DNA of 32,406 nt from an uncultured Nitrosospira sp. (lineage in GTDB: Bacteria; Nitrospirota; Nitrospiria; Nitrospirales; Nitrospiraceae). The stretch lies in the NCBI GenBank assembly GCA_900696505.1, contig CAADGJ010000123.1, forward strand, positions 1-32,406, in the 5' to 3' direction. Below are positions 42 to 10,329 of this stretch, piece after piece (the first letter of the stretch is position 1; each line of letters opens with the position of its first letter). The notes below the pieces were generated by a model. The model made no database searches, was not told where the DNA came from, and was given only the letters and a program-made list of their open reading frames with translations. The translations under genes and the position numbers were made by a program.

Positions 42-968
42 ATGCATCATCTCGTGATCATCGGCTCCGGACCTGCAGGTCTGACCGCGGCCATCTACGC
101 CGCGCGGGCCAACCTGTCGCCTCTTCTCATCGAAGGCTGGCAATCCGGCGGACAACTTACAACCACGACGGAAGTCGAGAACTATCCTGGGTTTTCGAAA
201 GGGATTATGGGGCCGGAGTTGATGAAGGAGATGCGTGGTCAGGCCGAACGATTCGGGACAGAGTTCCTGACCGGCGACGTCTCCGCGATCGATCTGTCGA
301 CCAGACCGTTTCGCCTGACCATCGACGGAGAACAAACGATCGGGGCGAGCGCTCTCATCTTGGCTACCGGCGCCTCCCCCATTCGACTCGGATTGCCGAA
401 CGAACACCGTCTGACCGGGTATGGTGTCTCGACCTGCGCCACCTGCGACGGATATTTTTTTCGCGGCCAGGATTTAGTCGTGGTCGGCGGCGGCGACAGC
501 GCGGTGGAAGAAGCGACCTTCCTGACGAAGTTTGCGCGCACCGTCACCCTTGTGCACCGCCGCGATAAGCTGCGTGCCTCCAAAATCATGCAAGACCGGG
601 CCATGAACAATGAAAAGATCTCCTTTGCCTGGAACTCCATCGTGGAAGACATTCTCGGGAAAGATCTGGTCACCGGTGTCCGGCTCAAGAACCTCGTGAC
701 GGGCCATTCCACAGACCTCCCCTGCGCCGGCGTCTTCGTCGCCATCGGCCACCGTCCCAACACTGATCTCGTCAAGGGTCAATTGGAGATGGACGAGCAG
801 GGCTACATCCTCACCTCGCGCGGGACGAACACCAGTGTGCCCGGCGTGTTTGCCGCAGGCGATGTCCAGGATGCGAAATACCGGCAGGCCATTACGGCAG
901 CCGGCTCCGGCTGCATGGCCGCCATCGACGCCGAACGGTTTCTAGAATCAGCGCTTCATTCTCTCTAA
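42..968 (+). CDS. trxB: Thioredoxin reductase (NAD(P)H-dependent flavoprotein)
   Basis: ORF with [19 protein letters not shown] motif, CATCDGYFF redox motif, [13 protein letters not shown](P) motif, C-terminal [27 protein letters not shown]. Confidence 0.96.
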
Positions 969-987
969 CCTCCCTAAACCTCCCGCA

Positions 988-1097
988 GGATGCTCAAAAT
1001 GGTTGTCCAACGAGGCCGCAGGCGAGACAGATACCGGAGGCGTACCCGCAGTGGTACGTTGAGGATATCGTCGAGCCGAGAACGAAGTTGCCAGCAG
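988..1097. repeat. Dispersed intergenic palindromic element, copy 1 (3' arm degenerate)
   Basis: GATGCTCAAAATGGTTGTCCAACGAGGCCGCAG left arm, central hairpin CGTACC-CGCAGT-GGTACG (1041-1058), then 19 nt to GAGAACG (1078-1084); shares architecture with the copies at 1149-1264 and 9271-9451. Confidence 0.7.
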
Positions 1098-1148
1098 TCG
1101 ACGATCGGCAATTCTTCACAAACCAATACCGAACTTAATTAAAAGGAG

Positions 1149-1264
1149 GTCGCTCAAAAATTTCTCCGGCAAGGCCGCAGGGAGCTTGGCCGACCGAGCG
1201 TACGAGTGGGTACGTGAGGAAGGACAAGCGACTGAGAACGCGGCCGGAGGAAGTTTTCAGCGAC
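1149..1264. repeat. Dispersed intergenic palindromic element, copy 2 (clear terminal inverted repeats)
   Basis: Left end GTCGCTCAAAAATTTCTCCGGC (1149-1170) is nearly the reverse complement of right end GCCGGAGGAAGTTTTCAGCGAC (1243-1264); GGCCGCAG at 1173-1180; central hairpin CGTAC-GAGTGG-GTACG (1199-1214); 19 nt to GAGAACG (1234-1240). Confidence 0.75.
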
Positions 1265-1271
1265 CGGGACT

Positions 1272-2450
1272 ATGCATTGCGCGATCATTCACTACCACGA
1301 ACTCGCCCTCAAAGGCCGTAACCGCGATTTCTTCGAACAGCGGCTCGTCCGCAACATCCGCCTGGCCCTCAAAGACCTGAAGATCCGGCGGATCGAATCG
1401 CTGCAGGGACGCATCCGGGTGACGATTCCCGAGGACGTCACGCCGGACCTGCTGACGGAGCGGCTCCGTCGCATTTGCGGCGTCTCAAACTTCCTGCTGA
1501 GCGAATCCGTGCCGTTAGACATCAGGGAGCCGGACCTGTCGAGCATCAAGCAGGTTGCGCAGCGTCAACTTGGGACACAGACGTTTACCTCGTTTCGAGT
1601 AACGGCCAAACGCGCGGATAAACGCCTGCCGTTGACGTCGATGGATGTGGAGCGCGAAGTCGGCGCCTATCTCCATGAAGCCATGGGGAAAGCCGTCAAG
1701 CTGAAACAGCCGGACGTGACCCTCTACATCGAGCTCCTCACCAAGGAAGCCCATGTTGCAGCGAGGAAAATCGAAGGTCCCGGGGGCATGCCGGTAGGCA
1801 CCAGCGGCAAAGTCGCCTGTTTGATCTCGGGAGGTATCGATTCCCCGGTCGCGGCTTACCGCATGATCAAGCGCGGGTGCAAGGCGGTCTTCGTCCATTT
1901 TTCCGGCCGGCCGCTGGTCAGCCGCGCATCGGAGGAAAAAGTCCAGGAGCTGGTCCAACTTTTAACGACGTACCAATATCACTCCAAGCTCTACATCGTC
2001 CCGTTCGGCGAAATTCAACAGGAGATCGTCGCCAATGCGCCGGCGGCGTTTCGTGTGGTGTTATACCGGCGGATCATGGTGCAGATTGCACAGGAGCTGG
2101 CGCGGCGGGAAGGCTGCTGGGCATTGGTCACCGGAGACAGTCTCGGTCAGGTGGCCTCGCAGACAGCGGAGAATCTGGTGGTCGTCGAAAACGCGGCGGA
2201 GATTCCTTTGCTCCGCCCGCTCATCGGAATGGATAAAATCGAGATCACGGAACAGGCCCAACAGATCGGCAGCTTCACCACATCCATCGAACCCGATCAG
2301 GATTGCTGCAAACTGTTCGTCCCCCTCCATCCAAGCACCAGAACCAAATTGGAGGATATCGTCCGCATCGAACGAGGGCTGGAGATCAGCGCGTTCGTCA
2401 AGCGAGGCGTCGAGAAGGCCGAACTGACGACCTTTACCTTCCCTTCGTAA
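1272..2450 (+). CDS. thiI: tRNA 4-thiouridine synthase / thiamine biosynthesis protein ThiI (no C-terminal rhodanese domain)
   Basis: MHCAIIHYHELALKGRNRDFFEQRLVRNI (ferredoxin-like/THUMP N-terminus), PP-loop CLISGGIDSPVAAYRMIKRG, VTGDSLGQVASQTAENL; 392 aa. Confidence 0.95.
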   Translation: MHCAIIHYHELALKGRNRDFFEQRLVRNIRLALKDLKIRRIESLQGRIRVTIPEDVTPDLLTERLRRICGVSNFLLSESVPLDIREPDLSSIKQVAQRQLGTQTFTSFRVTAKRADKRLPLTSMDVEREVGAYLHEAMGKAVKLKQPDVTLYIELLTKEAHVAARKIEGPGGMPVGTSGKVACLISGGIDSPVAAYRMIKRGCKAVFVHFSGRPLVSRASEEKVQELVQLLTTYQYHSKLYIVPFGEIQQEIVANAPAAFRVVLYRRIMVQIAQELARREGCWALVTGDSLGQVASQTAENLVVVENAAEIPLLRPLIGMDKIEITEQAQQIGSFTTSIEPDQDCCKLFVPLHPSTRTKLEDIVRIERGLEISAFVKRGVEKAELTTFTFPS

Positions 2451-9270: not shown

Positions 9271-9451
9271 GATGATCCCAGCCGCCACGCAAGGCCGCAG
9301 CAAGGTCCCTGGCGCGAAGCATAATGAGCGCCACGTTTGTGGACGCCGGCGAGACGGTGAGCCGGCAGTGTCTTAGAGGCGAGTCGTACCCTTGCGGTAC
9401 GTTGAGCCGATGAGTGACGCGAGAACGCCGCTGGTAGCCCATTTCAACATC
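9271..9451. repeat. Dispersed intergenic palindromic element, copy 3 (expanded left arm)
   Basis: GGCCGCAG (9293-9300), hairpin CGTACC-CTTGC-GGTACG (9385-9401), 19 nt to GAGAACG (9421-9427); right end CCGCTGGTAGCCCATTTCAACATC resembles the reverse complement of the copy 1 left end. Confidence 0.7.
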
Positions 9452-9456
9452 TTGCA

Positions 9457-10329
9457 CTAGATGCGTTTGGCCATGCGTGCAAACCGCTCCGGCAACAAGA
9501 CGCCGGTGGCCACGAGGTGTTTGCTCTGAATCGTTTTCTGCACGGCCTCGATACGCGCTGAAAAATTAGGATGGGTCTTAAACAAAGCCCGGTCGTCACC
9601 CTTGAGGTCTCGTAGGCGCGTCAGCAAGTTCACATAGGCGTCCGCATCATAGCCGACTCGCGTCGCAAACACTTCACCGATTGTATCCGCCTCCGTTTCC
9701 TTGTCCTGATCCAGGCCTTCATCGAGCAACTTCTTGACCGCGCCGTCGATCACGGTCTTGAACGCCGCCGGATTGCTCGTCGCGTAGGACAGGCCGGCTT
9801 CGGTCACCCCGGCCAGGCGTTTGCTGCGCTGAATGACATCGAGAATATGCTTTTGGCTCACGTGGGCGATTTCATGGCCCAGGACTGCAGCCAATTCCGC
9901 TTCGTTGCGGACCTGCTTGAGCAGACCACGCGTCACAAAGATGTAGCCGGCCGGCGCGGCAAACGCATTGATGGATTCATGTTCCAGAATCGCGACGCGA
10001 TACGGGATATCCGGCCGGTCAGACGTGTTCGCGACGGCCCGTCCCACCAGATTCACATACCGGACGAGCTCAGGTTGATCCACGACTCCGCCATACCGGG
10101 CGACGACCTGCAAAGCCATCGCCTGGCCGATCGACGACTCTTCCTCGTACCCGATCGGGAACAAACTCCCCACCACATTGCCGACTCCGTGAATGGCACC
10201 GGCCAGCCGCGGATTACCGGATTGCCGCGCGATATCTTCACTGGCGCGCTGCACTTCCGCGCAACCGGCCACCGTCAGTGAGAGGGCGATGAGCGTCGCT
10301 GTCAGGCCATGATTACTTCGCATATTCAC
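9457..10329 (-). CDS. M48-family metalloprotease lipoprotein
   Basis: Lipobox-like LTVAGC, HEIAHVSQKH zinc site, INAFAAPAGYIFVTRGLL, DKETEADTIGE; GTG start at 10329 (GGAGG 5 nt upstream) or ATG at 10323. Confidence 0.9.
   Translation of the reverse strand: MNMRSNHGLTATLIALSLTVAGCAEVQRASEDIARQSGNPRLAGAIHGVGNVVGSLFPIGYEEESSIGQAMALQVVARYGGVVDQPELVRYVNLVGRAVANTSDRPDIPYRVAILEHESINAFAAPAGYIFVTRGLLKQVRNEAELAAVLGHEIAHVSQKHILDVIQRSKRLAGVTEAGLSYATSNPAAFKTVIDGAVKKLLDEGLDQDKETEADTIGEVFATRVGYDADAYVNLLTRLRDLKGDDRALFKTHPNFSARIEAVQKTIQSKHLVATGVLLPERFARMAKRI

Follow-up and report, generated by a model that had tools for sequence, protein, structure and literature searches.

A phylum-wide hairpin family in Nitrospirota, probably MITE-like, with IS5-type ends and insertion beside stop codons

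Palindromic repeats that lie between trxB and thiI, and once more beside an M48 peptidase gene, in a 32,406-nt stretch of a Nitrospirota draft genome (the window) belong to a dispersed family of hairpins of about 124 nt, which is much larger than an earlier note on this DNA had suggested. The family is probably MITE-like, with a hairpin half that is conserved across the phylum and has probably been exapted. The reading that we favour, with a probability of roughly 0.6, is a phylum-wide, non-autonomous IS5-type family whose hairpin has been retained and is used by the host.

Copies in the window and the extent of the family

The window holds three copies, whose positions and neighbours are collected in Table 1. 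GGCCGCAG lies at window positions 1014, 1173 and 9293, and all three copies have the CGTAC..GTACG hairpins with differing loops and a spacing of exactly 19 nt from GTACG to GAGAACG, as the earlier note had described. This 19-nt spacing is constant in 27 of the 28 copies that could be scored in this genome and in 58/58 in a related genus, and the apical stem-loop of copy 1 corresponds to conserved helix 6 of the family, in which 97.1% of cells are paired. Copy 2, previously proposed to be a large imperfect palindrome, indeed forms one long hairpin (-63.2 kcal/mol, z = -6.97 versus shuffles); it ends 3-4 nt upstream of the start codon of thiI, a gene with orthologues in 29/29 genomes of the genus, and its own orthologues occupy the same position in most Nitrospira of the genus. 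Because it lacks the 3' arm, copy 1 by itself shows no folding advantage over shuffles (z = -0.98). The right end of copy 3 lies 2 nt from the TAG stop codon of the M48 peptidase gene (9457-9459, minus strand). The palindrome of about 73 nt nested in copy 3 (GTCCACGGCGCGAAG..TGAGCGCCACGTTTGTGGACGCCGGCGAG..GTGAGCCGGCAGTGTCTTA) occurs at the same internal hairpin position in several species, and a different type of insert (TTACCCGCCC..GACAGGCTCTTT..CATGGGGG) sits in the apical loop at L135:1626-1793 and L082:1713-1884.

Table 1. Features of the three window copies and their neighbours, with further sites of the nested palindrome
Feature	Position	Strand	Evidence or remark
trxB-like pyridine nucleotide-disulphide oxidoreductase gene, upstream of copies 1 and 2	42-968	+	Pfam PF07992, 187 bits
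Copy 1 of hairpin element	986-1110	+	Covariance-model match 986-1108, 87.1 bits
Copy 1, intact core	986-1087	+	
Copy 1, apical stem-loop CGTACC-CGCAGT-GGTACG	1041-1058	+	Conserved helix 6 of the family
Copy 1, conserved internal-loop strand GAGAACG	1078-1084	+	19 nt past GTACG
Copy 1, 3' arm: relic of trxB 3' end, not element sequence	1088-1119	+	Comparison with L371, L384, L389, L393, L395
Copy 2, complete imperfect hairpin	1146-1268	+	Covariance-model match 87.3 bits; fold z = -6.97; orthologues
thiI, downstream of copies 1 and 2	1272-2450	+	Pfam ThiI, 234 bits
Copy 3, degenerate 5' arm and nested insert	about 9274-9454	+	Covariance-model match 9355-9433
Nested ~73-nt palindromic repeat inside copy 3, unrelated to hairpin	9304-9376	+	Same insert in L126, L133, L135
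M48 peptidase gene, TAG stop facing right end of copy 3	9457-10329	-	Pfam PF01435, 106 bits
Nested ~73-nt palindrome, other sites	L126:7524-7692; L126:9037-9226; L133 ~6963; L135:4456-4625		

That these repeats form a dispersed family and not a chance resemblance was evident from BLAST with copy 1, which returned 28 places in the genome including the query itself, the next best at E = 1.7e-25. A covariance model built from 24 copies, with genome matches taken at E <= 1e-3, found 62 copies in this draft genome (best E = 5e-35), far beyond the three of the earlier note, whose proposed check for an intergenic location gave a positive result. Copies occur in all 29/29 congeneric genomes, from at least 36 to at least 114 in each, with the exception of the complete genome G004, which has two. 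Our survey covered Nitrospirota, and in an even sample across the phylum at least 67 of 148 genomes had matches, including members of other orders and classes; the copy counts for the genus and for this sample are lower bounds, scoring having been capped at 122 and 23 candidates per genome, respectively. Searches of Rfam (gathering threshold or E <= 0.1-1) and of plasmid and phage collections returned no matching family and no match, respectively, and a literature search found no description of the hairpin family. Some copies stand in head-to-tail tandem arrays with a period of about 128-131 nt (L094:5096-5482, L093:10759-11014 and L101:5687-5937).

Full-length form, insertion sites and IS5-type relatives

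Related genera contain younger copies, and there full-length elements measure 200±1 nt, lie between YTAR flanks and end in inverted repeats of IS5 type. The first 124 nt of this form make up one long imperfect hairpin, which is followed by a tail of about 75 nt, and the imperfect terminal inverted repeats read CAGGATGCTGAAAAAG on the left and CAGGCTGCGGAAAAACT on the right; the element is of short, defined length and has no coding capacity. The tail with the right terminal repeat is present in 38 of 251 copies (about 15%), 23 of them 199-201 nt long, a count of tailed copies, as the tail holds too little information for tail-only fragments to be counted. Among the 38 full-length copies, the left flank is YTAR in 18 and the right flank in 22, with both flanks YTAR in 10 and identical 4-mers in 7. 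The right-hand CTAG is often present even though the left 4-mer differs, and may be part of the element and not a target duplication.

The related genus with young copies (G155, G112 and G104), which are up to 99% identical within a genome, gives the clearest view of how the boundaries meet genes. When the copies there are read in reverse, 38 of 64 come after TAG and 6 after TAA, the 4-mer at the hairpin foot (n = 64) being CTAG in 20, TTAG in 10, ATAG in 5 and GTAG in 3. In almost half (31/64), no gap separates the element from the stop codon of an ORF with 90 or more codons (27 TAG, 4 TAA and 0 TGA). Stop codons that face the right end lie <=3 nt away in 34/46 and 24/36 cases, versus 0/37 and 0/27 for those that face the left end. 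In aligned cases, relatives without the element terminate the gene at the same codon, indicating that the stop position is native. As insertion is beside YTAR, one end of the element often comes to lie immediately behind a TAG or TAA stop.

The terminal repeats point to IS5-family relatives within the same bacterial family. The right repeat matches the ends of the insertion sequences at L263, L312, L313 and L328, and the left repeat is similar. The insertion sequence in N. defluvii is 1316 bp long and has CAGGCTGCGGAAAAAC at its ends and TTAG on either flank, and its transposase scores 278.9 bits against the NCBIfam IS5 equivalog (cut-off 140). Similar ends occur in relatives from other genomes, together with 4-base duplications that match (TTAG, ATAG, CTAA and CTAG), and the target duplication of E. 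coli IS5 is YTAR (PMC10359306). A search of 44 genomes with the N. defluvii query located the IS5 transposase in 18; the same query detected no IS5 relative in the three genomes with the youngest-looking copies, a result that bears on whether the IS5 partner is active at present. The N. defluvii IS5-family copy with the matching ends (L263:1260-2575) has an in-frame TGA near the N-terminus, which interrupts it. The almost hairpin-free genome G004 carries 14 identical copies of a 1177-bp IS5-type insertion sequence (L262-L279), which have YTAR-type duplications that match; this DUF772-domain (PF05598) element was considered as a partner and rejected, its terminal repeats being different.

In their general features, the hairpins resemble bacterial MITEs derived from insertion sequence families, such as NEMIS/Correia, RUP, Nezha and EFAR (PMC3733652), which are likewise 70-300 bp long, intergenic, noncoding and strongly structured, and have terminal repeats in common with resident insertion sequences. 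They differ from these MITEs in that only one half persists, as a hairpin, internal loops are conserved in sequence across the phylum, evolution at orthologous sites is slow and insertion is flush with stop codons. With IS5-family insertion sequences (NCBIfam NF033581; PMC10359306) they share terminal repeats and YTAR-type flanks, but they lack a transposase gene and are 200 or 124 nt long versus about 1.2-1.4 kb. The 127-bp ERIC/RU-1 elements (PMC2759123), set beside the hairpins here by description and not by sequence, are also multicopy intergenic repeats of about 127 bp with MITE-like features, although from an unrelated taxon. Multicopy nucleotide sequences of Geobacter (PMC2700814, PMC2996986) are, by description, also palindrome-based intergenic families, with no known function.

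Covariation and retention of the hairpin

The earlier note had proposed looking for stem covariation and boundary conservation, and both are present. Standard pairs make up 95.7% of pair cells across 137 distinct copies, versus 31-39% with the partner slid; double changes occur in 27 of 32 pairs, and double-change cells number 426, compared with 90 in shuffles. The stems covary strongly and the internal loops keep their sequence, the conserved unpaired parts being AAGGCCGCAG opposite GAGAACG, GGAG opposite TTGAGG and a C.C mismatch near the foot. Distant members retain the core loops, with different stems and, in some, different outer arms as well. Stem mismatches on the GGCCGCAG strand comprise 336 G.T versus 47 A.C cells, or 110 versus 47 without two consensus G.T pairs, a weak hint that the plus strand is the folded molecule, since both the covariance model and RNAalifold are biased towards G.U relative to A.C.

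To assess what happens to hairpins after insertion, we compared orthologous copies. At seven orthologous Nitrospira sites, hairpin divergence is 6-14%, versus 39-54% at cysK fourfold sites, and flanks at these sites that are neither coding nor fused to coding sequence mostly diverge by 16-44%. Five of the seven were also compared with one another: copies from different sites within a genome differ by 23%, and in 35 of 36 cases the closest counterpart in another species sits at the orthologous site, a pattern that speaks against homogenisation of these copies. Eight sites in the other genus show divergence of 6.4% for the hairpin, 37% for the adjacent tail and 47% at fourfold sites; taken alone, this result is ambiguous, because paralogues among these young copies are as similar as orthologues and gene conversion is possible there. 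Changes within sites include 20 double changes that preserve a pair versus 45 that are disruptive, indicating constraint on the sequence as much as on the pairing. Slow divergence of the hairpin against fast divergence at fourfold sites argues that the hairpins, including that at the trxB-thiI site, are held by selection after insertion, a conclusion drawn from these sequence comparisons. Deletion remnants at the cysK site (L138, L154 and L176) have internal deletions between short CGCTGA repeats, which is one route of copy loss.

At the trxB-thiI junction itself, 22 of 28 genomes of the genus carry a copy, 3-10 nt ahead of the thiI start codon, and the hairpin diverges by 13%, versus 42-44% at thiI fourfold sites. 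Several species have two copies at this junction, separated by sequence that resembles the 3' end of trxB, so that the tandem pair in the window and the broken arm of copy 1 would be explained by tandem duplication of the trxB 3' end together with one copy of the element. G004 retains only a deletion remnant at this junction (L396). Hairpins of the copy 2 type (window 1141-1272; L371, L372, L379, L382, L388 and L398) have a AAAGGAGG-like left foot and the thiI start at the right foot, and folding would therefore put a Shine-Dalgarno-like sequence beside the start codon.

These properties also bear on a more tentative explanation, that of a conserved structured RNA or ssDNA motif with a cellular role of its own, whose core is older than the transposon ends and whose arms are variable carriers. 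The phylum-wide core loops (CAAGGC-G, GGAG-CGTAC, GTACGTTGAGG and AACGC-GCAG), retained where stems and some outer arms change completely, are consistent with such a motif, as are the strong covariation, the slow evolution after insertion and the excess of G.T on the plus strand outside the two consensus pairs. The hairpins match no Rfam family, however, and lie in mixed orientation relative to genes; their fixed abutment to stop codons is accounted for by YTAR targeting, and the G.T asymmetry is biased by the preference of the covariance model and RNAalifold noted above. The suggestion in the earlier note of a structured RNA under selection for structure holds as regards structure, through the stem covariation, and the folded molecule itself is a candidate RNA. 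Some distant members have quite different ends, and the core of the hairpin may therefore predate ends of the IS5 type.

Other modes of spread and a possible role

Mobilisation as a REP-like element by a HUH/Y1 transposase (RAYT or IS200/IS605 type), acting on an NTAG-tagged ssDNA hairpin without target duplication, is an unlikely alternative, although it would accommodate the NTAG tag at the foot of a bulged hairpin, the high copy number, the persistence of the right-hand CTAG beside differing left 4-mers and the preponderance of G.T over A.C mismatches on one strand. It would also fit termini that provide TAG stop codons, as in GTAG REPs (PMC3733652), whose tagged hairpins are likewise numerous and located downstream of genes. 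The hairpins described here are, however, 124-200 nt long, unlike the 20-40 bp unit of GTAG REPs, have a YTAG tag (CTAG, not GTAG) and end in IS5 terminal repeats on the far side. A cognate RAYT, which the earlier note had suggested looking for, did not emerge: a search of 40 Y1 loci found one strong and one marginal element match nearby, and the element does not flank Y1 transposases, which several genomes rich in copies, one of them with young copies, lack. RAYT mobilisation was rejected on this lack of association, so that, of the MITE- or REP-like element first envisaged, the MITE part survives through the IS5-type terminal repeats and YTAR flanks and the REP part does not.

We regard it as improbable that the hairpins are bidirectional intrinsic terminators at gene ends, whether evolved in place or spread by transposition. 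A GC-rich stem between an A-tract and a T-tract, in both orientations and directly after stop codons, has the appearance of a terminator, but this stem has loops and much exceeds the usual length. Nitrospira loci show no enrichment of convergent gene pairs (7/87 versus 100/642 in the background) and the related genus only a slight one (16/56 versus 18/76), and divergent gaps are not depleted; a terminator role for convergent genes was set aside because this bias in gene-pair context is not clear. A simple terminator scan of the trxB-thiI site returned nothing. Integron-type attC recombination sites in cassette arrays, which long imperfect hairpins and same-orientation clusters with genes between might call to mind, are scarcely credible, since inspection found no RYYYAAC/GTTRRRY core sites (the ends are YTAG followed by CAGGATGC, and GCATCCTG) and the intervening genes (cysK, PALP, ThiS, ABC transporter and deformylase) proved to be a conserved core set that keeps its order from species to species.

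For the non-autonomous IS5-type family that we favour, the ends, target and length suggest that an IS5-type transposase would move the 200-nt element in trans into YTAR sites, with insertions behind stop codons surviving. Several observations weigh against this reading: the small share of copies with the right terminal repeat, the seldom identical flanking 4-mers, the three genomes with the youngest-looking copies in which no IS5 relative was detected, and the deviating ends of some distant members. The tail of about 75 nt has decayed, and the hairpin has been kept, with slow, site-specific evolution and covarying stems. The retained hairpin would serve the host, most likely in the transcript, as a structure at an mRNA end or operon junction that affects stability, termination or translation of the next gene. 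Such a transcript-level effect is suggested by the intergenic location, in some cases 3-10 nt ahead of a start codon, and, judged from sequence, we see roughly even odds for it; gene-pair orientation and the terminator scan do not single out termination.

Small bacterial palindromic repeats are usually seen as decaying selfish DNA, and their use by the host is a long-standing question. Here, orthologous insertions in globally important nitrifiers show directly that the hairpin part is retained and the tail decays, and, in contrast with dead transposon debris, sequence and folding are conserved long after landing, making the exaptation of a MITE hairpin a testable question. A bolder and more doubtful extension is that the core is a phylum-wide regulatory RNA or ssDNA module with a partner protein, seeded by IS5-type transposition at hundreds of gene ends and operon junctions and kept there by selection. 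If this is true, Nitrospirota would carry a domesticated transposon network that controls transcripts.
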